From assembly GCA_946553045.1 (NCBI GenBank), contig CAMNRO010000026.1, positions 1-35,889 on the forward strand: 35,889 nucleotides of DNA, read 5' to 3'. This document shows positions 98 through 32,124 of this stretch, one piece after another (within the stretch, counting starts at the first letter, position 1; each line of letters starts with the position of its first letter). The notes under the pieces were generated by a model. The model was not told the DNA's origin. It ran no database searches and was given only the letters and a program-made list of their open reading frames with translations. This DNA comes from an uncultured Porphyromonadaceae bacterium. Its GTDB lineage: Bacteria > Bacteroidota > Bacteroidia > Bacteroidales > Muribaculaceae. The position numbers and the translations under genes are program-made.

Positions 98-215
98 CGC
101 AACCGCCGCATGGCGGTTCAATATTCACACAGCCTATGGTATGGGCGTTCGCAGAACGCCCATACCATAGGTCTCCGCGTCACCCCGCGCACAGCAACCG
201 CATAGCGGTTGAATA
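98..215 (+). repeat. Composite three-hairpin repeat, copy R1
   Basis: This is a full copy of a roughly 118-bp element. It has hairpin 1 (AACCGCC-gcat-GGCGGTT), a linker AATATTCACACAG, hairpin 2 and hairpin 3 (AACCGC-ata-GCGGTT), ending in GAATA. Hairpin 2 is a perfect 18-bp inverted repeat at 133-150 and 154-171 around the loop GCA. Other full copies lie at 3001-3119, 3135-3251 (inverted), 31800-31916 (inverted) and 32010-32124. No ORF is carried, so this looks like a REP/BIME- or MITE-like non-coding element. I do not recognise a named family. Confidence 0.8.
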
Positions 216-287
216 ACTCTCCTCAAGCACCGTCCGGTGCGCGGTTTTTCGGGCTGGACGCGTTTTCAAACTTTAAGAGAAAATTTT

Positions 288-318
288 TTTGTGCGTTGAG
301 ATTTTTTGCTTACATTTG
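288..318 (+). promoter_or_regulatory. Bacteroidetes-type promoter
   Basis: TTTG at 288-291 is followed after 19 nt by TACATTTG at 311-318. This matches the Bacteroidetes -33/-7 pattern (TTTG, 19-21 nt, TAnnTTTG). It would start transcription about 25 nt before the ATG at 346. Confidence 0.7.
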
Positions 319-345
319 CGCTATCAGATACACCTTATCTCACAT

Positions 346-1395
346 ATGAAACACATCTCCGCTATTATAGCTGTCGTAATGACAGCTTTGGCAGTTTTGC
401 CCGTGAGTGCCGCCGACAACAACCGCAAGGTCCAGGTTGCCGGCATCGCTTTCTATAACTTCGAGAACCTCTTCGACACCATACCCAACAACCCCGAAGG
501 CCGCGACGTAGAGTTCACTCCCGGCGGTCCACGCCAGTGGGACACACGTAAATACAACGAAAAGGTACACAACCTCGCATATGCCATCTCCCAGTTCAAG
601 ACCAAGGTGACACCCCTCGGACCCGCCATCATCGGCGTCTCCGAAATCGAGAACCGCTCTGTGATGGAAGACGTGATAGCACAGCCCGAGCTCAAGCACC
701 TCGACCTCGGCATAGTGCACCACGACTCGCCCGACGCACGCGGCGTCGACGTTGGCATGATATACAACAAACGCTACTTCCGCGTCGAAAACGTAACCAA
801 CCACCGCCTCACCACAATCCCATACCGCACACGCGACCAGATGTGCGTCGTCGGCTCGCTCCTCGGACAGCGCATTGCCGTAATCGTAAACCACTGGCCA
901 TCACGCATCGGCGGACAGGAGCAGTCTTCGCCAAACCGCGAGGCCGCTGCTGCGCTCTCAAAGCAGATTGCCGACTCCCTCTGGAACGTCGACCCCGAAA
1001 TCGGAGTCATAATAATGGGCGACCTCAACGACGACCCCCAGGACAAGAGCTGTGCCGTTGTCCTCGGCGCTAAAAAGAAATCGAACGGCGTCGAAGCCCA
1101 CGGTTTCTTCAACCCCTGGTGGAGCAAACTCGACTCGGGCGTAGGCACCCTCGCATACAAAAGCCAGTGGAACCTCTTCGACCAGATTATAATATCAGGC
1201 AACCTCGTGAACGTGCCCGACGACCGCTGGCACTTCTACGAAGCCAAAGTCCTCAACTTCGACTTCCTCAAAGACACCGAAGGCTCTCGCCAGGGCTACC
1301 CCAAACGCACATACTCCGCCGGAAGCTACCTCGGAGGATACTCCGACCACTTCCCCACCGAAATATTCCTTCGCCGCTACGTAAAAAACAAATAA
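346..1395 (+). CDS. Secreted endonuclease/exonuclease/phosphatase (EEP) family protein
   Basis: The 349-aa product begins with a signal peptide (about residues 1-22, cleavage near VSAAD), so it is probably exported. EEP-fold motifs appear in order: YNFENLFDT near the mature N-terminus, SEIENR with the metal-binding Glu at 100 or 102, VNHWPSR, GDLND (Asp226, Asn228) and a C-terminal SDH (Asp334, His335). These are the metal and phosphate ligands of DNase I-like hydrolases, so it probably cleaves phosphodiester or phosphomonoester bonds. The substrate cannot be told from sequence; nuclease, sphingomyelinase and inositol phosphatase all share the fold. I chose the ATG at 346 over an in-frame ATG at 289 because 289 lies inside the promoter and only 346 begins a signal peptide. 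The next gene encodes a secreted modular protein. Confidence 0.85.
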   Translation: MKHISAIIAVVMTALAVLPVSAADNNRKVQVAGIAFYNFENLFDTIPNNPEGRDVEFTPGGPRQWDTRKYNEKVHNLAYAISQFKTKVTPLGPAIIGVSEIENRSVMEDVIAQPELKHLDLGIVHHDSPDARGVDVGMIYNKRYFRVENVTNHRLTTIPYRTRDQMCVVGSLLGQRIAVIVNHWPSRIGGQEQSSPNREAAAALSKQIADSLWNVDPEIGVIIMGDLNDDPQDKSCAVVLGAKKKSNGVEAHGFFNPWWSKLDSGVGTLAYKSQWNLFDQIIISGNLVNVPDDRWHFYEAKVLNFDFLKDTEGSRQGYPKRTYSAGSYLGGYSDHFPTEIFLRRYVKNK

Positions 1396-1408
1396 TCAAA
1401 TAGTTAGT

Positions 1409-1434
1409 AGAGAGGGGCAACGCAGTCCCTCTCT
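1409..1434 (+). terminator. Weak hairpin terminator candidate
   Basis: AGAGAGGG (1409-1416) pairs with CCCTCTCT (1427-1434) around a 10-nt loop, 14 nt after the stop of the EEP gene. There is no clear T tract, so intrinsic termination would be weak. The downstream gene has no visible TAnnTTTG box and may depend on read-through. Confidence 0.4.
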
Positions 1435-1469
1435 ATTGGCCTAATACTAACCAATCATAATTACTGCGT

Positions 1470-2939
1470 ATGAAAAAACTTTTACTCTCACTGCTCGCAG
1501 TCGCCGGCCTGTCCGCAAGCGCTGCTGAAGTAACCGATGTTCTTTCAGTTGCTTCGTTGCAAACAATGCCTAATTATAGTGCAACGGCAACAGCCTATGC
1601 TGAATATGTAGGCATTAAAGGCGAGTCTGGTGCCGAATACACACTTCAATGTGCACATAACAAAGGAACATGTATCCAGTTGAGATCTAGCAATAACAAC
1701 TCAGGAATCGTAGCTACCAGTTCGCCCGGTAAGGTTGTGAATGTAACAGTAGAATGGGCAAGCAACACCGCGGATAAACGTGTTCTTAATATCTATGGTG
1801 GTGAATCTGCTTTTACAATTGGCGGTTTATATGGTAGCTCAGCTCCTGCGGTTGCCGGAACTATTGTAAAAGGAACTTCTACTTCATTTGATTTTACAAG
1901 TTCTCCTGAGTATATCGGCATGCGCAGCAATAGCGGTGCAATGTATATTACCAAGATTTCTATTACATGGGATATTGCCGATTCGAGCAAAGAGCCTGCC
2001 GGTCTTAAATATGAGACTACAAGCTATAATGTAGAACTTGGAGACGCTTTCACAGCTCCCGAACTTATTAATCCCAACGGTCTCGTTGTTACTTATAGCT
2101 CAAGCAAGCCTGAAGTAGCTACTGTAGATGCTGCTGGTAAAGTTGAAATTATAGGTGCAGGTACAACTACAATTTCTGCAAAATCTGAAGAAACTGCTAC
2201 ATACAACGCCGGTTCGGCTTCTTACACCATTACAGTTACCGCTCCTGTACAGACTCTCGCTTCTATTGCCGCTACAAAAGAGCTTGCCGACAACACAGAA
2301 TTTAAAGTAGGCTATGAACTGACCGTAGGTTTCAAAAACAATAACAATGTTTTTGCATGCGATGCCGCCGGCGATTTCATTCAGATTTATGGCAGCAACA
2401 GCTATAATATCGGCGACAAGATTCCGGCAGGTTGGACCGGCAAATATATGCTTTATAATGGCAATACACCCGAAATCATGCCTGTAGGTAGTCTTCCTGT
2501 AGCCGAGGCCGGAACATTCACTCCTGCCGTGGTAGCTGCTACTGCTATTTCAAATGAGCTTGTAAACAGCGTTGTAACCATCAACAATGTAGAACTTGCA
2601 GAAGCAACTCCCGGTGAAGATGTTACAGACAAAGATGCTAAGAATTTCACCGGCACTGTAGACGGAACCACCCTTAATTTCCGTAACAACTATAAACTGG
2701 CCTCTGTAGATGCAGGTACATACAATATAACTGTGGTTGTTACTGTGTTTAACAATGCCCCCTCTCTCTATGTGACAAACTTCGAGAAGGTAACATCTAC
2801 CGGTATCGACGGTGTAATCGTTGACGAAAATGCTCCTGTTGAATACTACAACCTCCAGGGTGTACGCGTTGCCAACCCCGAAAACGGTCTCTATATCCGT
2901 CGTCAGGGCAACAAGGCAACCAAAGTCCTCGTAAAATAA
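1470..2939 (+). CDS. Secreted modular protein with Ig-like domain and T9SS-like C-terminal tail
   Basis: The product is 489 aa. Residues 1-18 form a signal peptide (cleavage near ASAAE). Residues 20-170 are a beta-rich domain I cannot assign. About 175-258 resembles a bacterial Ig-like (BIG2) domain, with VVTYSSSKPEVATVD and the following GAGTTTISA. About 260-440 is another beta-rich region, possibly OB-fold-like. The last 39 residues (VDENAPVEYYNLQGVRV, then NGLYIRRQGNKATKVLVK) resemble type A sorting tails of the type IX secretion system and match the tail of the 32194-33630 product at 37 of 39 positions. It is therefore probably surface-attached or released. No catalytic motif is recognised. 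Base composition is clearly more AT-rich than the neighbours. A strong terminator and a composite repeat follow. Confidence 0.75.
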   Translation: MKKLLLSLLAVAGLSASAAEVTDVLSVASLQTMPNYSATATAYAEYVGIKGESGAEYTLQCAHNKGTCIQLRSSNNNSGIVATSSPGKVVNVTVEWASNTADKRVLNIYGGESAFTIGGLYGSSAPAVAGTIVKGTSTSFDFTSSPEYIGMRSNSGAMYITKISITWDIADSSKEPAGLKYETTSYNVELGDAFTAPELINPNGLVVTYSSSKPEVATVDAAGKVEIIGAGTTTISAKSEETATYNAGSASYTITVTAPVQTLASIAATKELADNTEFKVGYELTVGFKNNNNVFACDAAGDFIQIYGSNSYNIGDKIPAGWTGKYMLYNGNTPEIMPVGSLPVAEAGTFTPAVVAATAISNELVNSVVTINNVELAEATPGEDVTDKDAKNFTGTVDGTTLNFRNNYKLASVDAGTYNITVVVTVFNNAPSLYVTNFEKVTSTGIDGVIVDENAPVEYYNLQGVRVANPENGLYIRRQGNKATKVLVK

Positions 2940-2964
2940 TCGCCCCCAATCCCCCCGCATAACC

Positions 2965-2992
2965 AAACGCCCGGCCCCCGCCGGGCGTTTTT
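2965..2992 (+). terminator. Intrinsic terminator after the tailed secreted protein
   Basis: AAACGCCCGGC, loop CCCC, GCCGGGCGTTT, followed by T residues. The stem is 11 bp and starts 26 nt after the stop codon. A near-identical stem follows the other tailed gene at 32139-32173. Confidence 0.85.
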
Positions 2993-3000
2993 TCGTGCAC

Positions 3001-3119
3001 CGCAACCGCCGTATGGCGGTTTAATATTCACACAGCCTATGGTTTGGGCGTTCGGTAGAACGACCATACCATAGGACATTGCGTCCGCCCGCGTCCCGCA
3101 ACCGCATAGCGGTTGAATA
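3001..3119 (+). repeat. Composite three-hairpin repeat, copy R2
   Basis: Same architecture as R1: hairpin 1 (AACCGCC-gtat-GGCGGTT), the AATATTCACACAG linker, hairpin 2 (CCTATGGTTTGGGCGTTC with GAACGACCATACCATAGG) and hairpin 3 (AACCGCATAGCGGTT) ending GAATA. Hairpin 2 has two mismatches. The same asymmetry recurs in copy R4 when both are read in the element's orientation. The 2940-3398 gap holds the terminator, R2, R3 and the GH3 promoter box, and no convincing gene. Confidence 0.8.
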
Positions 3120-3134
3120 CCGTCGTGGTCTTTT

Positions 3135-3251
3135 TATTCAACCGCTGTCCGCGGTTGATGTTTCTGAAAAAACGGATATTCCTATGGTATATCCGCCTGC
3201 GGCGTCTAAACCATAGGCTATGTGAATATAAAACCGCCGTTCGGCGGTTCG
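3135..3251 (-). repeat. Composite three-hairpin repeat, copy R3, inverted
   Basis: Reading the minus strand gives the same order of parts: ACCGCC-gaac-GGCGGT, ATATTCACATAG, a CCTATGG/CCATAGG hairpin with a diverged inner stem (TTTAGACGCC against GGCGGATATA) and AACCGC-ggaca-GCGGTT ending GAATA. It lies 15 nt from R2 in opposite orientation, so R2 and R3 form a tail-to-tail pair. Confidence 0.75.
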
Positions 3252-3386
3252 TCCGCGCGCATTTGCGGCGAAAGCGTTGGCTGCCAGCCGTTGACCCGCG
3301 GGTGTGCCGAATGCGCGCGCCTGCTGGGGCATTAATAAAAGCCACGGGACTTGTGGCTTATCGCTCCCGATTTCTAATTTTTTTCG

Positions 3387-3394
3387 TATTTTTG
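3387..3394 (+). promoter_or_regulatory. -7 promoter box directly before the GH3 gene
   Basis: TATTTTTG matches TAnnTTTG. It ends only 4 nt before the ATG at 3399, so the transcript would have almost no leader. No TTTG lies at the usual distance upstream, so the site is less certain than the others here. Confidence 0.45.
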
Positions 3395-3398
3395 TGCT

Positions 3399-4916
3399 AT
3401 GCTAAATCTTACGCCTATTGTGCGGCCGTTTTTCCGGCGCAGGGCTGCGTCAGCGGCTCTGTGGGCTGATCCTGAGGGTATGGAGCGCACGCAGCGCGCC
3501 GTGCTCGCATGGCTTTTGCGCCGCGCCTCCGCCACTGTCTACGGGCGCCGCTACGACTTCGGACGCCTCGGACGCTACGAAGATTTCGTCTCTGCCGTGC
3601 CCGCCGTGGTCTACGAAGATGTGCGCGCCGAGGTGATGCGCATGGTCGGCGGCGAGGCCGACGTGCTCTGGCCGGGCGTATGCCGCCGCTACGCGCAGTC
3701 GAGCGGCACCTCGGGCGGCAAGAGCAAGTATATACCCGTGACCGACGACTCTCTGCGCGCCAACCACTATGCCGGAGGCGCCTCGGCTGTGGCCCACTAC
3801 CTTGCGCTCTATCCGCAGAGCCGTCTTTTCGGCGGCAAGAGCTTCATTCTCGGCGGCAGTTTCGCCAACGAGCTCTCCGAGCTGCCACGGGGCGTGAAGG
3901 TGGGCGACCTTTCGGCTACGCTTATAGACCGTATCAACCCGGCGGTCAATCTGCTGCGTGTGCCTTCGAAAGCGACGGCTCTCATGAGCGACTGGCGCGA
4001 GAAACTGCCGCGTCTCATCGAAAATTCTATAAATCAGGATATTACCAATATTTCGGGGGTGCCGTCGTGGTTCATGACGGTGCTCCGCGGCGTGATGGAG
4101 CGCGCCGGCACCGACCGCATACACGACGTATGGCCCAATCTCGAGGTTTTCTTCCATGGCGGCATATCGTTTGCGCCATACCGGGGGCAGTACGAGACCT
4201 TCTGTGGCCCGGAGATGCGTTTTGTGGAGAACTACAACGCCTCCGAGGGCTTCTTCGCCGTGCAGGACACTCGCGAGGGCGGCCGCATGCGTCTGCTGCC
4301 CGACATCGGCGTGTTCTTCGAGTTCGAGCCGCTCGACGGCGGCGAGCCCGTGCCGGCATGGAGGGTAGAGCAGGGCAGGGTCTATTCGATGCTTATATCG
4401 GGGCCTAACGGTCTGTGGCGCTACGCCATAGGCGACACCGTGCGCATAGAGAGCACCGAGCCGCTGCGCATATCCATTGCCGGGCGCACGCAGAGTTTCA
4501 TCAACGCTTTCGGCGAGGAGCTGATGGTGTGGAACGCCGATGCCGCACTGGCCGAGGCGTGCCGCCGCACCGGCGCCACCGTAGCCAACTATACGGCGGC
4601 ACCGGTCTATGCCGAGTGCGGCCGCAAGGGCCATCACCAGTGGCTCGTGGAGTGGATGCGGCGCCCCGAGTGCGGTCCCGAGGCTTTCGCCGACATACTC
4701 GACGCCGAGCTGCAGCGCGTCAATTCCGACTACGAGGCCAAGCGCTCGGCCGACATCTTCCTCGCCCGCCTGGAGCTCACCGAGGTGCCTGCGGGCACTT
4801 TCGACCGCTGGCTGTCATCGACAGGCAAGCTCGGCGGCCAGCGCAAAATCCCCCGCCTGGCCAACGACCGCCGCATCGCCGACGCCATCGTTGAAATTAT
4901 GAATTATGGATTATGA
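3399..4916 (+). CDS. GH3 auxin-responsive promoter family protein (acyl-adenylating enzyme)
   Basis: The 505-aa length and motifs fit bacterial members of the GH3 family, which belongs to the ANL acyl-adenylating superfamily. The ATP-binding loop is SSGTSGGKSKYIP near residues 102-114, and YNASEGFF near 280 is the second nucleotide-binding motif. Plant GH3 enzymes join amino acids to acyl hormones. The role in Bacteroidales is unknown, so an amido synthetase acting on a cellular carboxylate is inference. There is no signal peptide, so it should be cytoplasmic. The start gives the family's typical N-terminus (MLNLTPIVR). The last residues, MNYGL, are encoded by an ATTATGAATTATGG spacer motif, so the original C-terminus may have been altered. 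It probably has its own promoter. Confidence 0.85.
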   Translation: MLNLTPIVRPFFRRRAASAALWADPEGMERTQRAVLAWLLRRASATVYGRRYDFGRLGRYEDFVSAVPAVVYEDVRAEVMRMVGGEADVLWPGVCRRYAQSSGTSGGKSKYIPVTDDSLRANHYAGGASAVAHYLALYPQSRLFGGKSFILGGSFANELSELPRGVKVGDLSATLIDRINPAVNLLRVPSKATALMSDWREKLPRLIENSINQDITNISGVPSWFMTVLRGVMERAGTDRIHDVWPNLEVFFHGGISFAPYRGQYETFCGPEMRFVENYNASEGFFAVQDTREGGRMRLLPDIGVFFEFEPLDGGEPVPAWRVEQGRVYSMLISGPNGLWRYAIGDTVRIESTEPLRISIAGRTQSFINAFGEELMVWNADAALAEACRRTGATVANYTAAPVYAECGRKGHHQWLVEWMRRPECGPEAFADILDAELQRVNSDYEAKRSADIFLARLELTEVPAGTFDRWLSSTGKLGGQRKIPRLANDRRIADAIVEIMNYGL

Positions 4917-4919
4917 ATT
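4894..4919 (+). repeat. 26-nt spacer motif, exact inverted copy of 8002-8027
   Basis: A 26-nt tract of iterated ATTATGAATTATGG units covers the final codons and stop of the GH3 gene. Its exact reverse complement lies at 8002-8027 before the LOG gene, and a related tract lies at 19798-19822 before metK. Confidence 0.8.
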
Positions 4920-4940
4920 GAGAGTTCCAGCCCTCATCTC

Positions 4941-5002
4941 TAACCCCTAACCACTCCCCTCTCCCACTAACCACTAACCACTAACCTATAACCCCCTAAC
5001 CC
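4941..5002 (+). repeat. Iterated CTAACC spacer
   Basis: Degenerate tandem units (TAACCCC, CACTAACC) fill the gap between the GH3 and alkaline phosphatase genes. The same motif recurs at 9003-9083 and, inverted, at 8604-8632 and 19731-19771. No promoter box is visible in this gap. Confidence 0.7.
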
Positions 5003-5008
5003 AATAAT

Positions 5009-6394
5009 ATGAAATTACGCAATTGTCTGTTCCTGCTGTTTTTAGCTGTGGCGCTCGGTGCTGCGGCCAAGGCGCCAAAATATATTTTCCTGTATATTGG
5101 CGACGGCATGGGTATGGGCCCCGTGATGGCGGCCCAGAATTACAACCGCAATGTCCTTCACAACGACAAGCCCCTCAACATGATGCAGTTTCCCGTGGTG
5201 GGCTGGGCGCAGACCTGGTCGGCAAGCTCCGATATCACCGACTCGGCCGCTGCCGGCACCGCGCTCTCGACAGGCCATAAGACCCGCAACTATATGCTCG
5301 GCATGAACGCCGACACCGTGGCAGTGAATTCTGTCGCCAAGATTCTGCACGACAAGGGTTTCGGCGTGGCCGTGGCGACCTCCGTGGCGCCCGACGACGC
5401 TACTCCCGGCGCTTTCTACACCCATGTGCCCAACCGCTCGATGTTCTATGAGATTGGCCGCGACATGGCCGAGTGCGGCTACGAGTTCGTAGCCGGAGCC
5501 GGGCTGCGTGGCACCATGACCGACGGCAAGCCCAACGACCTGCTCGACCGTTTCGCCGCTGCCGGCGTGCAGATTGTGCGCGGTCCCGAGGGTATCAAGG
5601 AGATGGCCTCCGAGCGCGTGCTGCTGCTTGGCCCCGAAGGCAGCTCCGAGCACAATATCGGCTATACCATCGACTCCATCGCCGGTGCCCTCACCCTGCC
5701 GATGATTACCGAAGCCGCTCTGACACAGCTCGAACGCACTTCGCCCCGCAAGTTCTTCATGATGGTAGAGGGCGGTAATATCGACCATGCCCTCCACGGC
5801 AACGACGCCGGCGCCTCCATCAAGGAAATACTCAATTTCGACCAGGCGATAGGCCTTGCCTTCGACTTCTACCGCGCCCACCCCGACGAGACCCTTATCA
5901 TCGTCACCGCCGACCACGACACCGGCGGCATGGCCATCGTGAAGCAGCGCGGCGGCAAGGGCGGCCTCGCCAACATCGACTGTCAGAAGGTGTCGAAAGA
6001 GGAATTCAGCAACTACTGCAAGGCTATGCTCAAGTCGCGCAATATCTACAAGTGGGAGGATATGAAAGAGTATCTTGCCGACAATCTCGGGTTCTTCTCC
6101 CGTATTCCTGTGAGCGATAAGGCCGAAGCCAAGCTGCGCAAGCTCTTCGACGATACTTTCGAGCAGCGCAATACCGCCGACCAGAAGACGCTCTACGCCA
6201 ATTTCAACGCTTTCGCCGTGGCCGTGTTCGACATGTTCAACGATGCTGCCGGCGTAGCCTTCTGCACCACCAGCCATTCGGGCAACGTCGTGCCGGTATT
6301 CGCCATCGGCCCCGGTTCCGACGCCCTCAAAGGCTTCAACAACAACATCGATATTCCCGCCGCTATCCTCCGCGCGGTAGGGCTTGTGAAGTGA
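5009..6394 (+). CDS. Alkaline phosphatase, exported
   Basis: The 461-aa protein has a signal peptide (about residues 1-20, LAVALGAAAKA) followed by the alkaline phosphatase superfamily core. IGDGMGMG is the first metal-binding motif. DSAAAGTALSTGHKT contains the probable nucleophile Ser79 next to Asp78. ADHDTGGM supplies metal ligands, and a late SHSGN carries the last His. It should release phosphate from phosphomonoesters in the periplasm or at the cell surface with two zinc ions. No Pho-box-like regulation can be shown. A 12-bp hairpin follows at 6422-6463. The start is the only ATG giving a signal peptide. The spacer upstream lacks a recognisable promoter. Confidence 0.9.
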   Translation: MKLRNCLFLLFLAVALGAAAKAPKYIFLYIGDGMGMGPVMAAQNYNRNVLHNDKPLNMMQFPVVGWAQTWSASSDITDSAAAGTALSTGHKTRNYMLGMNADTVAVNSVAKILHDKGFGVAVATSVAPDDATPGAFYTHVPNRSMFYEIGRDMAECGYEFVAGAGLRGTMTDGKPNDLLDRFAAAGVQIVRGPEGIKEMASERVLLLGPEGSSEHNIGYTIDSIAGALTLPMITEAALTQLERTSPRKFFMMVEGGNIDHALHGNDAGASIKEILNFDQAIGLAFDFYRAHPDETLIIVTADHDTGGMAIVKQRGGKGGLANIDCQKVSKEEFSNYCKAMLKSRNIYKWEDMKEYLADNLGFFSRIPVSDKAEAKLRKLFDDTFEQRNTADQKTLYANFNAFAVAVFDMFNDAAGVAFCTTSHSGNVVPVFAIGPGSDALKGFNNNIDIPAAILRAVGLVK

Positions 6395-6421
6395 TTGGTT
6401 TGAAGGGTAATAAGTTTAAAA

Positions 6422-6463: not shown

Positions 6464-6504
6464 CTTTCAACTCAATACTCTGTAAACTCAAAAGAATAAA
6501 GAAG

Positions 6505-7947: not shown

Positions 7948-7949
7948 AT

Positions 7950-8603: not shown

Positions 8604-9031
8604 GGTTAGTGATTATTGGTTAGTAGTTAGTGATGTTATGATGTTTTCATTTGAAAAACTCAATGCATATTCTGAAGCAAGGCTACTCGTAGCCAAGGTT
8701 TATGGCGTGTTGGCTGTATTTCCTAAAAATGAGCAATTTGCATTGACTGCGCAAATACAAAGGAGTATAGTGGCCGTTCCTTCAAACATAGCTGAGGGTA
8801 GCGGACGTCATTTCCTGAAAGAAAAAATACATTTTCTGGATATTGCTTATGGTTCTTTGATGGAAGCGTATTGTCAGTTGCAGATTGCGTTGGATTTGAA
8901 TTATATAGATATTGATACATTCGAAGATTTAAAAACTGGATTTTACTCGACGGCTCGACTGATTTCGGGCCTCAGTAGAAAATTCCAGAATGATCTAAAA
9001 TCCACTAACCCCTAACCACTAATCACTAACC
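8604..9031. mobile_element. Candidate small cassette: four-helix-bundle gene between 29-bp inverted repeats
   Basis: The left arm 8604-8632 (GGTTAGTGATTA, T, TGGTTAG, TA, GTTAGTG) and the reverse complement of the right arm 9003-9031 agree at 26 of 29 positions. Between them lies one AT-rich ORF (8638-9015) and little else. The layout recalls 23S rRNA intervening sequences, in which an ORF of this protein family sits between complementary ends. No transposase or target duplication is seen. The CTAACC motif also occurs in other spacers nearby, so the arms may be coincidental products of spacer growth. Confidence 0.4.
8638..9015 (+). CDS. Four-helix-bundle protein (23S rRNA intervening-sequence protein family, TIGR02436-like)
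   Basis: The 125-aa sequence matches the family pattern: FEKLNAYSEARLLVAKVY at the N-terminus, FALTAQIQRSIVAVPSNIAEG in the middle and FLDIAYGSLMEAYCQL afterwards, consistent with four amphipathic helices. Relatives are encoded inside 23S rRNA intervening sequences, and the Avd protein of diversity-generating retroelements shares the fold. Neither an rRNA gene nor a reverse transcriptase is nearby. The biochemical role of free-standing copies is unknown. The gene is much more AT-rich than its neighbours, which suggests transfer. ATG codons at 8638 and 8641 are both possible starts. Confidence 0.85.
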   Translation: MMFSFEKLNAYSEARLLVAKVYGVLAVFPKNEQFALTAQIQRSIVAVPSNIAEGSGRHFLKEKIHFLDIAYGSLMEAYCQLQIALDLNYIDIDTFEDLKTGFYSTARLISGLSRKFQNDLKSTNP

Positions 9032-9083
9032 CCTCCAAAGGATTTAAAATCCACTAACCCCTAACCCCTAACCACTAACCCCC
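9003..9083 (+). repeat. Iterated CTAACC spacer
   Basis: Degenerate CACTAACC and CCCTAACC units run from just inside the right inverted arm to 6 nt before the DUF4271 start. The block ATCCACTAACCCCTAACC appears twice, from 9000 and from 9049. Confidence 0.7.
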
Positions 9084-19537: not shown

Positions 19538-19701
19538 GCAATCAAGGAAACGCGATTGCATGTGGACAGATTTGGCTGCTTGCAACCACTCGAAAAAATG
19601 CTAAAATCGTTTCTCCGGCCTCCGTGCCGGGTCTATATATACACGGTTTTTAAGTTTTACCTGTGCTGCACCGCTCGCCCGACGAGTCCGGTGCATTTTT
19701 T
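19538..19701 (+). ncRNA. Candidate short RNA or terminated leader upstream of metK
   Basis: A promoter (19505-19533) and an intrinsic terminator (19667-19701) delimit a roughly 160-nt transcript without a solid gene. Hairpins visible along it are GCAATC/GATTGC (19539-19560 area), GTGG/CCAC, CCGGC/GCCGG near 19615-19630 and the terminator stem. I do not recognise it as a SAM riboswitch, SRP, 6S, tmRNA or RNase P RNA. It could be a free sRNA or an attenuation leader of metK. A 14-codon ORF inside (19560-19604) is probably chance. This accounts for most of the 19476-19825 gap. Confidence 0.4.
19667..19701 (+). terminator. Intrinsic terminator before metK
   Basis: TGCACCG pairs with CGGTGCA, an inner CTCG/CGAG stem closes over loop CCCGA, and six T residues follow. 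Its position between a promoter and metK suggests either the end of a small RNA or an attenuator. Confidence 0.75.
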
Positions 19702-19703
19702 AT

Positions 19704-19730
19704 TCATATCATGAAACTTTCATGATATGA
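19704..19730. promoter_or_regulatory. Perfect 27-nt palindrome upstream of metK
   Basis: TCATATCATGAAA, C, TTTCATGATATGA: 13-nt arms around one central C, with no mismatch. It lies about 95 nt before metK, right after the terminator. Such symmetry fits a dimeric repressor site, but no cognate regulator is known. Confidence 0.5.
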
Positions 19731-19822
19731 GGGTTAAAGGTTAAGGGTTAGTGGTTAATGAACCTTTAACCGGGTTTATTAGATAAATAAAATCATCATT
19801 CATAATTCATCATTCATAATTT
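19731..19822. repeat. Iterated GGTTAA and ATTCATAA spacer before metK
   Basis: GGTTAAAGG (19732-19740) is repeated in degenerate form and answered by CCTTTAACC (19763-19771), giving a possible hairpin. A tract related to the 26-nt motif of 8002-8027 (ATTCATAATTCATC, 19798-19822) then runs to 4 nt before the metK ATG. Confidence 0.65.
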
Positions 19823-19825: not shown

Positions 19826-21109
19826 ATGAATTATCTGTTTACTTCCGAATCCGTTTCTGAAGGGCATCCCGATAAGGTTGCCGACCAGATTTCCGATGCT
19901 GTCCTCGACGAATTTCTCGCCCGCGACCCTCAGTCGAAGGTTGCATGCGAAACCCTTGTCACTACAGGCCAGGTAGTTGTAGCCGGCGAAATAAAGAGCG
20001 AGGCATATATCGATTTGCAGGAAACCGCCCGCCGCGTTATCAATGAGATTGGCTACGACCGTTCCGATCTCCGCTTCGACGGCAACAGCTGCGGCGTGCT
20101 CCTTGCCGTGCACGAGCAGAGCCCCGACATCAACCGCGGCGTTGACCGCGGCGACGCCGCAGAGCAGGGCGCCGGCGACCAGGGCATGATGTTCGGTTAC
20201 GCTACAAACGAGACCCCGCTCTATATCCCTCTCACACTTGCCCTTAGCCACGGTCTGCTGATGGCTCTCGCCGAAATCCGCCGCGAGGGTGTCGACATGA
20301 CCTATCTCCGCCCCGACGCAAAGAGCCAGGTGACAGTGGAGTATGACGATAACAACCGCCCGGTGCGTATCGACACCATCGTGGTATCGACCCAGCACGA
20401 CGAGTTTATCGACGCTGCCAAAGAGGGCATAAGCCAGGCCGAGGCAGACGAGAAAATGCTCGAAATCATTCGCCGCGACGTGCACGATATTCTCATTCCC
20501 CGTTTCCGCGCCAAGCTCGACAAAAATATCTCCGACATGTTCGAAACCGACTATAAGCTGTTTGTGAACCCAACAGGCAAGTTCGTAATCGGCGGCCCGC
20601 ACGGCGATACCGGTCTGACAGGCCGCAAGATAATTGTCGACACCTACGGTGGCCACGGCGCCCATGGCGGTGGTGCCTTCTCCGGCAAAGACCCCTCCAA
20701 GGTAGACCGCTCGGCAGCCTATGCCGCCCGTCATATCGCCAAGAACCTCGTGGCAGCCGGCGTTGCCGACCGTGTGCTTGTGCAGGTAGCCTATGCCATA
20801 GGCGTGGCCGCTCCCGTCAGCCTCAATGTAAATACTTACGGCACAGCTCATGTAGACCTTTCCGACGCCGAAATCGCCGCCCGCGTCTACGAGCTATTCG
20901 ACATGCGCCCAGGAGCCATCGAAGAACGTCTGAAACTGCGCAACCCCATCTATCGCGAGACCGCTTCCTACGGTCATGTAGGCCGCACCCCGCGCACCGT
21001 CACCAAGACCTTCTCTTCGCACTACGAAGCACCCTTCACACGCGAAGTCGAGCTCTTCACCTGGGAAAAACTCGACGCCGTCGACGCTATCCGCGCCGCA
21101 TTCTTTTAG
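19826..21109 (+). CDS. metK: S-adenosylmethionine synthase
   Basis: The 427-aa protein begins [20 protein letters not shown], with the ATP-binding GHPDK signature, and has the second signature [12 protein letters not shown] at about residues 112-123. A glycine-rich loop ([15 protein letters not shown]) lies near 275. It joins ATP and methionine into SAM in the cytoplasm. Length and motifs are normal for Bacteroidetes. The stop codon (TTTTAG) lies at the edge of a TAGGA-type spacer. Expression may be controlled by the leader at 19538-19730, but no known riboswitch class is visible. Confidence 0.97.
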
Positions 21110-26595: not shown

Positions 26596-26611
26596 AAACA
26601 TAGTTAAGGCA

Positions 26612-26680: not shown

Positions 26681-27932
26681 ATTTCTCTTTATCTTTCTTT
26701 TCGTCCTCTTTTTCGTCGTCCGACACTTTCACGTCGGGGCGGTCGTCGATAGGGTCATGGGTCTTGAGATATTCTTCGTAAAGATTCAGTATTGTCGACG
26801 GATTGTCCTTGAGTTCGTTGCGGTGGCCTTTCCAGTCGGGGCTGTCTTCGTAGTATTCCTTGAGCATGGCGTGGAATTCAGGCGCCGCTTTCTTCATGTA
26901 ATTCAAGAGCAGGGCAATGCTCACGGAGCCGTTGGAGTAGAGCATGAACGCTCCTTTGGCGCCTTCGAAATACACGCTGACGATCGGCACGAGGCGGCTC
27001 ACAGGGTTTCTGCCGCCGCTTGTCTCCCACACTTCCCATTTCACAATACAGCCCGACGGGCGTCTGTCCCACAGCCAGGAGAAGCCGCGTGTATATTTGT
27101 TTACCTTGAACATTACCGGAGAATTCATCGACAAGGATACTCTTGTGTTCGGAGCGATGTTATTGTCGAACCATCGTATTTCGCTTATGTCGTCGGCGGA
27201 GTAGCGTGTTCTCTTGCCGTCGGGCTCTTCGCTGAAATTGATGTACTGCAGAAGAGTGCCCGATTTGGAGAATAGATTTTTGGCTATGGTCTTGGCGTCG
27301 TAGTGGAGATAGCCGAAGACAGTGTCGCCGTCCATCTTCACCATGCGCACGTAGTTTTCGGGGTATTCGCGGCCGAGGAGATACTTCAGCCGGGCTTCGA
27401 GAGCCGTGTCGCCGTCGGATATTTTGGCAACTTTCTCGGCGAATTTTTCGGGCGACTGGTCGTAGGGATTCTTCAGGTCTTTGTATTTGCCGTCGCGCTC
27501 CACTATCAGCTTCTGTGTGTCGTAGAACCACAGGCCGCCGTCGGGGCGGAGACGGAAGCCTCCGTCGGAGTAGACATAGCTGTTGGACTGCGGCGCCTTG
27601 TCGATGACGGTGCTCCAGCCGTATTTGGGCAGATAGACGAAAGTATAGCGCTTGTCGGGCACTGTCGGCAGCCACACCACTACCGAGTCGACCTTGGCCG
27701 GGGCGATCTCGTCGGTCTTCGTCTGTGCTTTGGTATATGCCTTTTCCACCGGCTGGAGGGCATCTTTCTTGCGCGGCATCGACAGCATTGAGTCGCCGCC
27801 GTATTCGCTTACTGTACCGTCTTTGTGGTAGACGCGCGCATTGGTTAACTGATAGATTTTGGCACCCTCCGCAATCGGTGCGCACATGGCTGATATAAGA
27901 ATCAGGCCTCCGGTCACTAAGTTTCTCATCAT
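26679..27932 (-). CDS. Exported protein of unknown function
   Basis: The product is 417 aa from the MMRNLV start (27932, or 27929). A longer frame to 28007 would run through the promoter box. Residues about 1-23 are a signal peptide (GGLILISAMCAPIAEGAK). The mature part is mixed alpha/beta with VVWLPTVPDKRYTFVYLP and TVFGYLHYDAKTIAKNLF segments and repeated short strands, then an acidic/basic tail (DDEKEDEKKDKEK). I do not recognise a family or catalytic motif. It lies downstream of, and on the same strand as, the Crp/Fnr gene, 91 nt away, and could be its target or simply a neighbour. It converges with the TonB receptor gene. Confidence 0.7.
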   Translation of the reverse strand: MMRNLVTGGLILISAMCAPIAEGAKIYQLTNARVYHKDGTVSEYGGDSMLSMPRKKDALQPVEKAYTKAQTKTDEIAPAKVDSVVVWLPTVPDKRYTFVYLPKYGWSTVIDKAPQSNSYVYSDGGFRLRPDGGLWFYDTQKLIVERDGKYKDLKNPYDQSPEKFAEKVAKISDGDTALEARLKYLLGREYPENYVRMVKMDGDTVFGYLHYDAKTIAKNLFSKSGTLLQYINFSEEPDGKRTRYSADDISEIRWFDNNIAPNTRVSLSMNSPVMFKVNKYTRGFSWLWDRRPSGCIVKWEVWETSGGRNPVSRLVPIVSVYFEGAKGAFMLYSNGSVSIALLLNYMKKAAPEFHAMLKEYYEDSPDWKGHRNELKDNPSTILNLYEEYLKTHDPIDDRPDVKVSDDEKEDEKKDKEK

Positions 27933-28004
27933 ATCCGTATCATTAAGGTTGAACAACGGCCTTGTGTGTTTTGGGATAAACACATGTGTGGCCGCTGTGA
28001 TACG

Positions 28005-28012
28005 CAAAAATA
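28005..28012 (-). promoter_or_regulatory. -7 promoter box of the exported-protein gene
   Basis: On the minus strand TATTTTTG lies about 73 nt before the ATG at 27932. It sits just past the stop codon of the Crp/Fnr gene. No well-spaced TTTG is seen upstream. Confidence 0.45.
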
Positions 28013-28023
28013 CGGTATATGTT

Positions 28024-28602
28024 TCATTTGTCGTGGGACAAATGTCCCGTCAGCCTGCGGATACGCTGGAATTGGCGGCGCGAGACCGAGAGATACGATG
28101 CCAGTTCCTGCATGGGCACAAGGTTCAGAAGTCCGGGCGCACGTTCTATTAGTTTCAGGTATCGCTGGGTCGGCGAAAACCTGTGCATGTCTATATAGCG
28201 CCTGTAGGCTTCATTTAGCAGAAGGGCTGTCGTTTTGGCGAGGTAATCGGGATATGTTTTTGCGAGGTATGTCCGCATTTCGGCGATTGGTACTCTTAGC
28301 ACTTCCGCATCGGCGCCTGCTATAATCGACGTCAGCGAGGGCTGCGAGTATAGAAATGAGCGCACATAGTCTGTCACGATGTCTCCTTCGAAAGAGAAGC
28401 CCGTGGTGCATTCGTCGCCATGCTCGTCGAAGACTACATATTTGAAATATCCCGACTGCACGATGGCTATGTAGCGGTCGACAGACCCTTCGCTGACAAA
28501 AGGCCGTCCTTTGTCATATTTCACTGCTTCGCCGTGGGCGCAGCAATAATCGTAGATGGGGGTCATTTCAGAATGCCCCATGAAGTCGTTGAGTCGGGCC
28601 AT
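28024..28602 (-). CDS. Crp/Fnr-family transcriptional regulator
   Basis: The 192-aa product (start ATG at 28602) has a cyclic-nucleotide-binding-like beta domain (about residues 15-115: KGRPFVSEGSVDRYIAIVQS, TTGFSFEGDIVTDY). A dimer helix follows, then a C-terminal helix-turn-helix (MQELASYLSVSRRQFQRIRR). Bacteroidetes Crp-like proteins of this size often lack clear cAMP ligands, and none are evident here; the Fnr cysteine cluster is also missing. Its signal and targets are unknown. A longer start at 28626 is possible but adds an unlikely MYFYHKKT leader. Confidence 0.85.
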   Translation of the reverse strand: MARLNDFMGHSEMTPIYDYCCAHGEAVKYDKGRPFVSEGSVDRYIAIVQSGYFKYVVFDEHGDECTTGFSFEGDIVTDYVRSFLYSQPSLTSIIAGADAEVLRVPIAEMRTYLAKTYPDYLAKTTALLLNEAYRRYIDMHRFSPTQRYLKLIERAPGLLNLVPMQELASYLSVSRRQFQRIRRLTGHLSHDK

Positions 28603-28800
28603 TGTTTTTTTGTGGTAAAAATACAAAAAAACGGACTGAGAATCGCATTTTTGACGTAGGGTAGGGCGGAAGATTCCGAAAAATCGATTCTCAAAGAGTT
28701 ATATATTGGTTTAAATGGTTGTAATTCAATGTTATGTCTTTGTGTTTTATATTCTTTATTTTTGGGCAATCTGTGAACGGTGTTTTTCCTTTTTTTTAAT

Positions 28801-28808
28801 TATCTTTG
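28801..28808 (+). promoter_or_regulatory. -7 promoter box upstream of ybeY
   Basis: TATCTTTG fits the consensus, and the start would lie just before the ATG at 28825. A second candidate, TATTTTTG, lies at 28757-28764. Neither has a well-placed TTTG upstream. The 28603-28824 gap otherwise holds only AT-rich sequence. Confidence 0.4.
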
Positions 28809-28824
28809 CATGCAATTAAATGAT

Positions 28825-29247
28825 ATGACGCCCGCATTTCAATGGATTACCTCGGGTGTTGACGCCCCGAGGCTTGATTATCAGCAACTTGAGCAATGGA
28901 TTGTCCAAGTTGCCGCTTCTTACAACCGAATTGTACGCTCCCTTAATTACATTTTTTGCTCCGACGAAGAGATTATCGATGTAAACCGTCGCTTCCTTAA
29001 TCACGACTATTACACCGACATCATCACCTTCGACGACTGCACCGCCGGCATGTTGCGCGGCGACATGTATATATCGCTCGACACCGTGCGCTCCAACGCC
29101 GAGATGCTTGGCGTGGGCTACGACCGCGAACTCCGACGCGTCATTATCCATGGCGTGCTCCATCTCTGCGGTATCAACGACAAAGGCCCGGGCGAGCGCG
29201 AGATTATGGAAGCGGCCGAAGACAAGGCCCTCGCCTTGCTGTCATAA
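28825..29247 (+). CDS. ybeY: Endoribonuclease YbeY (rRNA maturation)
   Basis: The 140-aa protein fits the YbeY/UPF0054 family: NRIVRSLNYIFCSDEEIIDV, then NHDYYTDIITFD and the metal-site segment HGVLHLCGIND. Two zinc-binding histidines (His109, His113) are present, but the third position of the H-x3-H-x5-H motif is Asp119, which I believe is common in Bacteroidetes. It acts in 16S rRNA 3' processing and ribosome quality control. I chose the ATG at 28825 because the upstream ATGs at 28780 and 28810 lie before or at the predicted transcript start. mnmG follows after 18 nt. Confidence 0.85.
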   Translation: MTPAFQWITSGVDAPRLDYQQLEQWIVQVAASYNRIVRSLNYIFCSDEEIIDVNRRFLNHDYYTDIITFDDCTAGMLRGDMYISLDTVRSNAEMLGVGYDRELRRVIIHGVLHLCGINDKGPGEREIMEAAEDKALALLS

Positions 29248-29265
29248 CTTAAACAACCACTTATT

Positions 29266-31143
29266 TTGCGATTCGATTTCGATATTATAGTAGTAGGCGC
29301 CGGCCATGCCGGTTGCGAGGCCGCTCATGCTGCGGCCCGACTCGGTGCGCGCACCCTCCTGGTGACGATGGATATGAATAAAATCGCCCAGATGAGCTGT
29401 AACCCCGCTGTAGGCGGTATCGCCAAGGGGCAGATTGTGCGCGAAATCGACGCTCTCGGCGGCATGATGGGAATTGTGGCCGACCGCACAAGCATACAGT
29501 TCCGCATGCTCAACCGAAGCAAGGGACCGGCCATGTGGAGTCCGCGCATTCAGGCCGACCGCAATAAATTCTCGGCGCTGTGGCGCGAAATTCTTGAGCA
29601 CACGCCTAACCTGTCGATGTGGCAGGGCAACGTCGATTCGCTCGTCTTCGACGACGGGCGCCTCGCCGGAGTCCACACGTCGGAGGGTGCGACTTTCCGG
29701 GCGGGTAGGGTAGTGCTGACCAACGGCACCTTCCTCGGAGGCCTCATGCACATAGGGCGAGTTTCGTTCGAAGGAGGCCGCATTTCCGAGCCGGCTTCGC
29801 ACGGTCTTACCGAGCAGCTGAGAGAACTCGGTTTCTCGGCCGCACGCATGAAGACCGGCACGCCAATGCGTATCGACGGTCGTACAATCGACTTCTCCAA
29901 GACAACACCGCAGCCCGGCGACACAGATTTCAATCATTTCTCGTATCTCCCGGAGGTGAAGAGCGAGTTGCGCCAGCGCGACTGCTACACCGTATATACA
30001 AGCGAGGAGACATGCGAGATTCTGCGTCGCGGCCTTCCCGATTCGCCCCTGTACAACGGACAGATTCAGAGTATCGGGCCGCGCTATTGCCCCTCTATCG
30101 AGACAAAAATAGTGACATTCGCCGACAAGACCGAGCACCAGCTCTTCCTCGAGCCCGAGGGCGAGACAACACAGGAATTCTATGTCAACGGCTTCTCCTC
30201 GTCCATGCCCATGGATATTCAGATAGCCGCCATATCTACTATTCCGGCCCTCAAGGACGCTCAGCTCTACCGCGCGGGCTATGCCATTGAATACGACTTT
30301 TTCGACCCCACACAGCTGCGTCATACCCTCGAGACACGCCTCGTGCCGGGATTGTTCTTTGCCGGACAGATAAACGGCACCACGGGCTATGAGGAGGCCG
30401 CAGGCCAGGGTCTGATTGCAGGCGCTAACGCGGCCCTGCAGTTCCTCGGAAAAGAACCTCTTGTGCTTGGCCGCGACCAGGCATATATCGGCGTGCTCAT
30501 AGACGACCTTGTGACAAAAGGCGTCGACGAGCCATACCGCATGTTCACCAGCCGTGCCGAATACCGCATCCTCCTGCGTCAGGACGACGCCGACATGCGC
30601 CTCACTCCTATCGCATACGAAATCGGGCTTGCCGACGACCACCGTTTCGCCCTCCTCGAAGAGAAACGACGCCTGCGCGACGCCATAATCGAACTGGCCG
30701 ATACTCTCACCGTGCGTCCGGCCGAGGTCGAAACGCTAATGGAGAAGTCGGGAACTTCGCCCCTGAAGCAGGGTGTGAAGCTGCGTTCGCTCATAGAGCG
30801 TCCACAGCTCACCATACTGTCGATAGCCCCGTTCGTCGAGCCTTTGTCCGCATTGGTCGATTCTTTGCCCGAAGACCGCCGTCTCGAGATTGTGGAGGCT
30901 GCCGAAATCCTCGTGAAATACGAGGGCTATATCGCACGCGAGCGTCTGGTGGCCGAAAAACTGCGCCGCCTCGAAGATGTCAAGCTTTCGCCCGATACCG
31001 ATTATTCACAGATTAAATCGCTTTCAACCGAAGCCCGCCAGAAGCTCGACCGCCACAAGCCCGCAAGCGTGGGCGAAGCCTCGCGCATTCCCGGCGTTTC
31101 TCCGAGTGATGTGAGTATACTTCTGCTCCTCATGAACCGGTGA
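29266..31143 (+). CDS. mnmG: tRNA uridine-34 carboxymethylaminomethyl modification enzyme MnmG (GidA)
   Basis: The 625-aa protein starts with an FAD-binding Rossmann motif (VVGAGHAGCEAA, residues about 9-20) and shows NPAVGGIAKGQIVREIDALG and AGQINGTTGYEEAAGQG, both diagnostic of MnmG. The C-terminal helical domain (LSPDTDYSQIKSLSTEAR, then GVSPSDVSILLL) binds MnmE. With MnmE it installs the cmnm5 group on wobble uridine of several tRNAs. The start codon is TTG at 29266; no ATG gives the conserved N-terminus. A parS site lies 3 nt after its stop. mnmG commonly lies near the replication origin in bacteria. Confidence 0.97.
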   Translation: MRFDFDIIVVGAGHAGCEAAHAAARLGARTLLVTMDMNKIAQMSCNPAVGGIAKGQIVREIDALGGMMGIVADRTSIQFRMLNRSKGPAMWSPRIQADRNKFSALWREILEHTPNLSMWQGNVDSLVFDDGRLAGVHTSEGATFRAGRVVLTNGTFLGGLMHIGRVSFEGGRISEPASHGLTEQLRELGFSAARMKTGTPMRIDGRTIDFSKTTPQPGDTDFNHFSYLPEVKSELRQRDCYTVYTSEETCEILRRGLPDSPLYNGQIQSIGPRYCPSIETKIVTFADKTEHQLFLEPEGETTQEFYVNGFSSSMPMDIQIAAISTIPALKDAQLYRAGYAIEYDFFDPTQLRHTLETRLVPGLFFAGQINGTTGYEEAAGQGLIAGANAALQFLGKEPLVLGRDQAYIGVLIDDLVTKGVDEPYRMFTSRAEYRILLRQDDADMRLTPIAYEIGLADDHRFALLEEKRRLRDAIIELADTLTVRPAEVETLMEKSGTSPLKQGVKLRSLIERPQLTILSIAPFVEPLSALVDSLPEDRRLEIVEAAEILVKYEGYIARERLVAEKLRRLEDVKLSPDTDYSQIKSLSTEARQKLDRHKPASVGEASRIPGVSPSDVSILLLLMNR

Positions 31144-31145
31144 AA

Positions 31146-31161
31146 TGTTCCACGTGAAACA
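31146..31161. promoter_or_regulatory. parS: parS, ParB-binding centromere site
   Basis: TGTTCCACGTGAAACA is a 16-nt match to the bacterial parS consensus TGTTnCACGTGAAACA, with CACGTG at its centre. It lies directly after mnmG. ParB (with CTP) loads at such sites and spreads, linking the origin region to SMC loading and chromosome segregation. No parA or parB gene is in the window. I noticed no second site here. Confidence 0.85.
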
Positions 31162-31209
31162 ATTTCGACTCAATTATTCGAAAATCAAATAATTATAAAA
31201 CTATATTTA

Positions 31210-31728
31210 ATGGAATACATCAAGTCTAAAATCCGCGATGTTCAGGATTTCCCCAGCAAGGGTGTCCTTTTCAAGGACCTCACTACTGCGTTTAAAGATC
31301 CGCGTGCTCTCCACATCATTGGCTGGGATCTCTCGCAGCTCTATCGCGACAAGGGCGTGACAAAAGTCGTAGGTATCGAATCGCGCGGCTTCATCGGCGG
31401 TTCTATCCTTGCGTTCGAACTTGGCGCAGGCTTCGTGCCCTGCCGCAAGCCCGGCAAACTGCCTGCCGACACAATCCGTGAGGAATATGCTAAAGAATAT
31501 GGCACAGACGTTATCGAGATTCACCGCGATGCCATCGGTCCTGATGATATCGTAGTGATTCACGACGATGTTCTTGCCACCGGCGGCACAATGGCTGCAG
31601 CCTACAAGCTTGTAAAAAGCCTCAATCCGAAGAAAATCTACATCAACTTCATCATCGAGCTTTCTGCCCTCAATGGCCGCGCAGCGCTGCCCGCAGACGC
31701 CGAAGTAACCTCTCTCATCAAATACTGA
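31210..31728 (+). CDS. apt: Adenine phosphoribosyltransferase
   Basis: The 172-aa protein begins with the APT pattern IRDVQDFPSKGVLFKDLTT and carries the PRPP-binding loop VVIHDDVLATGGTMAA (about residues 117-132). GIESRGFIGG lies near 55. It converts adenine and PRPP to AMP in purine salvage. Its start follows the parS site by about 50 nt, and a TATATTTA sequence just before the ATG may be a diverged -7 box. A perfect-stem terminator follows. Length is normal for the family. Confidence 0.96.
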   Translation: MEYIKSKIRDVQDFPSKGVLFKDLTTAFKDPRALHIIGWDLSQLYRDKGVTKVVGIESRGFIGGSILAFELGAGFVPCRKPGKLPADTIREEYAKEYGTDVIEIHRDAIGPDDIVVIHDDVLATGGTMAAAYKLVKSLNPKKIYINFIIELSALNGRAALPADAEVTSLIKY

Positions 31729-31750
31729 TCACTCTGAAACCAGTATAACA

Positions 31751-31780
31751 AAGGAGCCGTGGATTTCCACGGCTCCTTTT
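31751..31780 (+). terminator. Intrinsic terminator after apt
   Basis: AAGGAGCCGTGGA, a short ATTT-type turn, and TCCACGGCTCCTT form a perfect stem, followed by T residues. It begins 23 nt after the apt stop. Confidence 0.92.
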
Positions 31781-31799
31781 CTATTTCCACCCCGCCTGT

Positions 31800-31916
31800 T
31801 ATTCAACCGCAGTCCGCGGTTGGTCTTGTATGTGGTCGCTTAGACCTATGGTATGGTCGTTCGGCAGAACGCCCAAACCATAGGCTGTGTGAATATATAA
31901 CCGCCTATGGCGGTTT
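31800..31916 (-). repeat. Composite three-hairpin repeat, copy R4, inverted
   Basis: The minus strand reads hairpin 1 (ACCGCC-ata-GGCGGT), TATATTCACACAG, hairpin 2 with arms CCTATGGTTTGGGCGTTC and GAACGACCATACCATAGG, and hairpin 3 (AACCGC-ggact-GCGGTT) ending GAATA. The two arms of hairpin 2 equal those of copy R2. The 31729-32193 gap holds the apt terminator, R4, a stray hairpin, R5 and a second terminator, with no gene. Confidence 0.8.
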
Positions 31917-31951
31917 TTTGCGTGTCATGATGGCCGTGGGTTGTGCTGGAG

Positions 31952-31971
31952 TAACCGACCTATGGCGGTTT
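31952..31971 (+). repeat. Lone partial hairpin of the composite repeat
   Basis: TAACCGACCTATGGCGGTTT resembles hairpin 1 with one extra base in the left arm. It stands alone between R4 and R5, like the lone hairpin at 51-74. Confidence 0.45.
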
Positions 31972-32009
31972 CTACATATCAGAATGGCTGCAATGGTTTG
32001 TGCGAGAAG

Positions 32010-32124
32010 AACCGCCAAAGGCGGTTTCATATTCACAGAGCCTATGGTTTAGCCGCCGGGACGGTGGCTATACCATAGGTCATCGTAATTTCCGCATGGA
32101 ATGCAACCGCATGGCGGTTGAATA
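32010..32124 (+). repeat. Composite three-hairpin repeat, copy R5
   Basis: Hairpin 1 (AACCGCC-aaa-GGCGGTT), CATATTCACAGAG, hairpin 2 (CCTATGGTTTAGCCGCC with GGTGGCTATACCATAGG) and hairpin 3 (AACCGCATGGCGGTT) ending GAATA. The inner stem of hairpin 2 differs from R1 and R2, yet most positions still pair, including one G-T wobble. R4 and R5 are head to head. Confidence 0.78.

Follow-up and report, generated by a model that had tools for sequence, protein, structure and literature searches.

A dispersed three-hairpin repeat in a Muribaculaceae genome and its probable link to a Y1_Tnp enzyme of TnpA_Y1 subclass 1.2

Repetitive extragenic palindromic (REP) sequences, bacterial interspersed mosaic elements (BIMEs) and REPINs, together with the TnpA_REP transposases (RAYTs), are best known from the Proteobacteria, and are the closest described counterparts of a composite repeat identified in the window analysed here, the 35,889-nucleotide (nt) contig C26 (CAMNRO010000026.1) of an uncultured Porphyromonadaceae bacterium (genome G000, GCA_946553045.1; GTDB family Muribaculaceae; 2.93-Mb assembly, 85 contigs, 93 % complete). 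As in the REP/RAYT systems, the repeat occurs in many intergenic palindromic copies and in inverted pairs, copies flank a low-copy HUH/Y1 gene, and an imperfect hairpin carries a tetranucleotide at its foot. It differs from them in comprising three hairpins in ~115 nt rather than one in 20-40 nt, in the foot, which is A[C/T]AG, preceded at 10 nt by another hairpin, rather than GT[AG]G, and in the enzyme motif, which is of the type Y---Q--HH (YISHQYEHH) rather than the Y---NP of class 2. The Bacteroidales, the host group of the present repeat, also harbour the BrickBuilt miniature inverted-repeat transposable element (MITE) of Porphyromonas gingivalis. BrickBuilt likewise consists of repeated units predicted to form stem-loops, but is set apart by its description as 23-nt tandem repeats with a leader and a tail, and IS200, tyrosine and REP are absent as whole words from the main text of that report (PMC4596501). 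The CGTC-tagged REPs, which have been reported in Bacteroidetes too and whose transposase is not known, are similarly palindromic but comprise single 8-9 bp hairpins with a CGTC tag (PMC3733652); in the G000 copies CGTC has no fixed place next to a hairpin, with a few copies carrying it before hairpin 1. The IS200/IS605 insertion sequences (IS608, ISDra2) share the HUH/Y1 chemistry, which is presumed here from sequence, as well as subterminal hairpins read as single-stranded DNA (ssDNA) (PMC6006769), whereas in G000 a single gene was found, without one left and one right end, and the repeats far outnumber it. For TnpA_Y1 subclass 1.2, Table 1 of PMC6006769 gives REP as "no", and the genes of this subclass are described as generally being without typical terminal IS200 structures. 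REPs assigned to subclass 1.2 were not found in the open-licence literature, with subscription papers mostly outside the scope of the search.

The composite element and its copies

From 5' to 3' the element comprises hairpin 1 (AACCGCC/GGCGGTT), a 10-nt linker, a tetranucleotide which is mostly A[C/T]AG, hairpin 2 (basal stem CCTATGGT/ACCATAGG, the upper stem often being imperfect), a variable stretch of ~20 nt, hairpin 3 (AACCGC/GCGGTT) and a terminal GAATA. When folded as ssDNA, the five copies in the window gave z scores of -6.5 to -9.9, with 0/200 shuffled sequences per copy being equally stable. A search of the whole genome with the hairpin-2 pattern, which is its own reverse complement, each site being seen on both strands, yielded 27 sites against none for the reversed-pattern control, and these counts, along with the fold z scores, exclude a chance origin. 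BLAST analysis with copy 1 as query returned 37 matches in the genome, some of them palindromic self-matches, and a total of 28 elements could be distinguished on nine contigs (the 27 pattern sites and a diverged copy at C4:113308), so that the repeat is not confined to a single contig. Since contigs of G000 break within or beside repeats (ends of C13, C25, C26 and C28), the true copy number may exceed 28. The original prediction, made from the letters of the window, had described copies occurring as inverted pairs, and this is borne out, with 23/28 elements located in inverted pairs or clusters and 5/28 solitary. Seven pairs of neighbours are arranged tail-to-tail, with gaps of 15, 15, 15, 15, 16, 17 and 17 nt, and seven head-to-head, with gaps of 28 to 100 nt. 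Thirteen of the fourteen blocks of elements overlap no open reading frame (ORF) of at least 110 amino acids, the exception being the C4:113308 block, which overlaps one that is possibly spurious. Going by a crude longest-ORF call, the ORFs on either side of five blocks are convergent, and four blocks lie at contig ends and have a neighbour on one side only.

The borders of the element are sharp, as the columns outside the 28 copies carry only 0.01 to 0.71 bits, the largest values being found 17-18 nt beyond the tail and due at least partly to partner elements. The tail reads GAATA in 26/28 aligned copies and GAAGA in one, while the C8 copy, which was aligned one base short, reads GAATT in the genome. 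The terminal GAATA could pair with the TATTC of the linker as a guide with its cleavage site; this was considered, relatives inspected by eye offered no clear parallel, and it stays an idea. Comparison of the window against Rfam at the gathering score returned SAM-II and tRNA only, and the earlier statement that no described family was recognised thus holds for Rfam at this score.

The partly compensating arm changes that had been noted among the five window copies could be confirmed for helix 2 in the alignment of all 28, where changes on both sides occur in 7/17 pairs and 88.4 % of cells pair; variation of the arms without compensation is thereby ruled out. Over the whole structure, 92.8 % of cells are paired, compared to 89.6 % in shuffled and at most 44.5 % in slid alignments, and the covariation score is 0.132, compared to 0.070 and at most 0.062, respectively. 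One of the five measures shows the opposite trend, with 13 further standard pair types against 15.3 in shuffled alignments (500/500 shuffles reaching at least the observed value). No pair of hairpins 1 and 3 has changed on both sides among the 28 copies, and columns 41/64 are T.T in 27 of them. Two main subtypes, A and B, are distinguished by G-C/A-T and T-A/C-G swaps, and in the C4:113308 copy the basal stem is doubly compensated (CCTGGGGT/ACCCCAGG) and hairpin 1 is different. The changed cells represent few independent events (the two main subtypes, a C18 variant and the C4:113308 copy), and the covariation therefore supports, but falls short of proving, selection on pairing.

The Y1_Tnp gene, its relatives and their flanking repeats

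A candidate for the REP-associated transposase envisaged in the original prediction is encoded in the same genome. The sole match to PF01797 (Y1_Tnp) at E 0.001 or better (C13:59645-59989, minus strand; E 5.6e-19; Pfam score 69.5 bits) lies in a 151-amino acid ORF (C13:59546-60001, minus strand), and this gene is situated within a cluster of five elements, with two on one side (59273-59385, minus; 59414-59528, plus) and three on the other (60092-60206, minus; 60293-60407, plus; 60423-60535, minus). The NCBIfam IS200/IS605 model gave 52.7 bits, where the cut-off of 55 is not reached, and three transposase chains in PDB were matched by sequence (2xm3, 2xma and 2xo6; E 2.1e-4 to 7.5e-4). These three chains are presumably of the ISDra2 TnpA. 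On the basis of the Pfam and PDB matches, an HUH/Y1 fold is presumed for the enzyme. Its motifs are ENHVH, WQ and YISHQYEHH, and the residues H55, H57, W95, Y115, Q119, H122 and H123 do not vary across 32 aligned sequences, with Q96 being nearly invariant. The Y motif, the WQ and the length of 151 amino acids fit TnpA_Y1 subclass 1.2 of PMC6006769, where the HuH motif of this subclass is printed as DH[IV]H; the G000 enzyme has NHVH. In the same source, the E. coli residues linked to the GTAG guide include W94 and Q95, to which, judging by the motif, W95 and Q96 of the G000 enzyme would correspond.

The surroundings of related genes were compared in 40 regions from 39 genomes of the window's family, with 44 TnpA sites, of which 42 were testable (two lost to contig ends). 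A flank repeat was defined as a repeat that the 600 bp to the left and the 600 bp to the right have in common at E 1e-8 or lower, with the other ORFs of the same regions serving as controls. Flank repeats were found at 27/42 TnpA sites, compared to 5/294 control ORFs (p 3e-24), and in a further 40 regions from the rest of the phylum at 22/41 sites, compared to 8/405 ORFs (p 1e-19). Local hairpin repeats are thus associated with this enzyme group in the sampled genomes, at 49/83 testable sites overall, in contrast to the "no" under REP for subclass 1.2 in PMC6006769. The subclass Y motif (Y---Q--HH type) is present at 44/44 family sites and 39/41 of the others, the class 2 motif Y[IV]--NP at 0/44 family sites, and [DN]H-hydrophobic-H, with both D and N occurring, matches at 42/44 family sites, with two not matching. 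In ten genomes picked among those having flank repeats, these repeats have 4 to 41 matches and are spread over several contigs or distant positions in 8/10, in both cases among the matches listed.

Relatives of the enzyme at E 1e-10 or better are encoded in 129/297 genomes of the family, with the nearest being 49-50 % identical and occurring in genera other than that of the window. In G155 and G092, which encode two of the nearest homologues, three-hairpin units are found on both sides of the gene, with hairpin 2 (CCTATGG/CCATAGG) as in G000 and hairpins 1 and 3 different. The looser pattern CCTATGGN{17,32}CCATAGG is present in 46/297 genomes, nine of which contain at least three copies (G000, 33; G119, 24; G092, 22; G007, 9; G167, 7; G155, 6; G165, 5; G239, 3; G278, 3); the counts in the remaining 37, at one or two, are close to the 0 or 1 of the control. 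Following a suggestion made along with the prediction, the G000 copies were used to build a covariance model, which matched in 13/297 family genomes, twelve of them beyond G000 itself (match counts are lower bounds; 12 candidates were scored per genome). An enzyme relative is encoded in 10/12 of these matched genomes, with G000 left out, compared to 118/284 unmatched genomes (p 0.006), the two without being G263, which is 70 % complete and gave no match to Y1_Tnp, and G273, which gave two weak ones. The covariance matches adjoin the enzyme gene in G015, G155 and G271.

The relatives also point to a TAG-type tag at a set distance from the hairpins. Hairpin density within 700 bp of the gene is 5.07 per kb, compared to 1.30 far from it, in the family, and 3.83 compared to 0.68 outside. 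TAG follows at a distance of 9 nt on 7.0 % of the near hairpin sides and 0.9 % of the far ones in the family; outside it, the values for a distance of 10 nt are 12.8 % and 1.3 %, respectively, where both sides of each hairpin are counted and repeats near one gene are not independent. The G000 elements, which were outside the set in which the tag was discovered, carry A[C/T]AG at the tag place in 26/28 copies (foot tetranucleotides ACAG, 16; ATAG, 10; AGAG, 1; ATTG, 1), and the 10-nt distance in 27/28. Directly at the hairpin foot, NTAG is found in the family at 16/72 near versus 15/322 far long hairpins and 22/331 versus 31/932 short ones, with no enrichment outside the family (short, 6/218 near versus 30/480 far; long, 4/29 versus 13/235). 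GTAG occurs at the hairpin-2 foot of units beside the genes of G155, G015 and G102. The classical REP foot, GT[AG]G at 0-2 nt 5' of the hairpin, was not found in the G000 copies and, as the class 2 enzyme motif was likewise not found, the repeat is considered REP-like rather than a classical REP.

Competing explanations for the repeat

The leading idea of the original prediction, a REP/BIME- or MITE-like element mobilised in trans, gains support from the many copies, their inverted pairs, the covariation and the Y1_Tnp gene. The repeat is best read, with a probability of about 0.7, as a REP/BIME-like non-autonomous element of a REPtron that is served in trans by the subclass 1.2 HUH/Y1 enzyme. 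The 151-amino acid enzyme would probably recognise a folded single strand by its hairpins together with the A[C/T]AG left unpaired at the hairpin-2 foot, while Y115 would cut and join the element when it is exposed as ssDNA, for example on the lagging strand, by which copies could spread into intergenic sites, often as inverted pairs.

Several observations weigh against this reading. Both sets of 40 regions are the top of score lists rather than a random draw, 15/42 family and 19/41 outside sites (34/83) have no flank repeat by the test used, and both L231 sites among the 22 positive sites outside the family look by eye like coding duplications. Among the ten picked genomes, all 16 matches of G173 are local, and G113 has only four, at least three of them on one contig. 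The strict triple-hairpin layout, under a rule set after examples had been seen, is present at 8/44 sites in the family, compared to 0/159 control windows, and is not significantly enriched outside it (2/41 compared to 1/166). In four genomes outside the family, 6, 0, 9 and 13 units lie within 1.2 kb of the gene, forming local arrays in 3/4, and 200 kb sampled from each of four complete genomes contained 1, 2, 11 and 8 units, compared to 4, 1, 4 and 12 in reversed sequence. The exception to this lack of apparent dispersal is an array in G609 (L307), located in a 20-kb segment where no relative of TnpA could be found. G119 and G165, with 24 and five pattern copies, respectively, have no Y1_Tnp match, and represent either orphan repeats or assemblies in which the gene was lost. 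Finally, the search for occupied and empty sites that had been suggested along with the prediction yielded no pair at the three insertion sites compared with 49 same-genus genomes (G000 included). At 31800-32124 of the window, the 19 loci read retain both genes on the left, but neither of those on the right was found in them, with some loci ending early; at the C58 site the left and right parts match different contigs in the genomes looked up (e.g. G128, G302 and G274); and at C4:76127 the right-hand side alone is matched, among the matches listed. No site could thus be read as occupied or empty, and movement, along with binding, cleavage and the role of the tag, is what we infer.

The gene could instead be an ordinary insertion sequence copy and the repeat a MITE, that is, a shrunken IS200/IS605 remnant moved as such. 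This is in line with the score of the enzyme against the NCBIfam model (52.7 bits, cut-off 55) and its matches to PDB transposase chains, but appears unlikely, as no second copy of the gene was found in the genome, clusters of two and three whole elements stand at the borders of the gene in place of one left and one right end, and the Y motif and WQ differ from the Y[IV]ENQ and W[TS] motifs given for subclass 1.1 in PMC6006769. It is very improbable that the hairpins act purely at the RNA level, as transcript terminators or mRNA stabilisers for which the pairing is kept: the scarcity of overlapping ORFs (13/14 blocks without), the five convergent locations by the crude ORF call and the covariation would suit such a role, but the elements occur in both orientations and in inverted pairs with tail gaps of 15-17 nt, surround a gene for a predicted DNA-cutting enzyme, and match no Rfam family. 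An RNA role may also be compatible with a mobile repeat rather than exclusive of it. The spread might also be passive, through recombination or slipped replication at palindromes, with no enzyme taking part and the place of the gene being incidental. The repeat families of G119 and G165, as well as the two C18 pairs, which resemble a local duplication, would be in keeping with this. The strong flank association in the sampled regions on both sides of the family boundary, and the sharp borders with little common sequence outside them, make it a remote prospect.

Taken as a REP-like system, the repeat suggests that a little-known group of enzymes possesses a family of small DNA repeats of its own. 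The chances appear evenly divided that subclass 1.2 throughout the Bacteroidota forms a second REP system, which arose separately out of the IS200-like side of the enzyme family and is marked by the signal "hairpin, 9-10 nt, [A/G]TAG", this signal having grown into three-hairpin, genome-wide composites in the window's family and staying as local arrays beside the gene elsewhere. If these readings are true, an enzyme subclass described as lacking REPs and insertion sequence properties would gain a DNA partner, the origin of REP systems would become accessible to testing through a TAG-type tag common to the two sides of the TnpA_Y1 tree, and these Bacteroidales-type bacteria would own a dispersed, probably mobile repeat family, which could help in typing strains and in accounting for contig breaks in assemblies.

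Elements in the window and neighbouring features

All five full copies that had been predicted in the window are present in the predicted orientations, and their exact borders are given in Table 1. The fragments listed earlier were also found, and represent isolated hairpin-1-like stretches.

Table 1. Composite elements, hairpin 2 of copy 1 and element fragments in the 35,889-nt window
Feature	Position	Strand	Basis
Composite element, subtype A, fully paired hairpin 2	101..215	+	fold, alignment
Composite element, subtype A; 15-nt gap to tail-to-tail partner 3135-3249	3004..3119	+	
Composite element, subtype B	3135..3249	-	
Composite element, subtype A; 94-nt gap to head-to-head partner 32010-32124	31800..31915	-	
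Composite element, hairpin 2 B-like	32010..32124	+	
Hairpin 2 of copy 1, basal stem CCTATGGT/ACCATAGG	133..171	+	
Hairpin-1 fragment, truncated by contig start	1..14	.	by reading
Isolated hairpin-1-like fragment; near-identical stretch near end of contig C13	51..74	.	by reading
Isolated hairpin-1-like fragment	31952..31971	.	by reading
Isolated hairpin-1-like fragment, near contig end	35777..35800	.	by reading

The contig ends in a G run (35841-35889) which looks like a sequencing or assembly artefact. Two ORFs adjoining the repeats share a conserved C-terminal stretch (YYNLQGVRV...; 2799-2941 and 32192-32334), which resembles a sorting tail; the two stretches form an inverted repeat with 84 % complementarity, and similar ones occur in many same-genus genomes. 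Low-complexity repeats of the CTAACC type are found in both orientations (4933-4995, 8604-8632, 8989-9082 and 19718-19778), and a similar tract of the CCTAAT type adjoins the C4:113308 element. Among the arrays outside the family, that of L307 (G609) has ACCGC-type hairpins with a 9-nt spacing to ATAG, while those adjoining TnpA genes at L209, L216 and L222 comprise a short palindrome, 9 nt and ATAG, with spacers in between, and might pass for CRISPR arrays. The SAM-II riboswitch of the window (19556-19614) is located 0.2 kb before an ORF (19826-21109) which by eye resembles S-adenosylmethionine synthetase.

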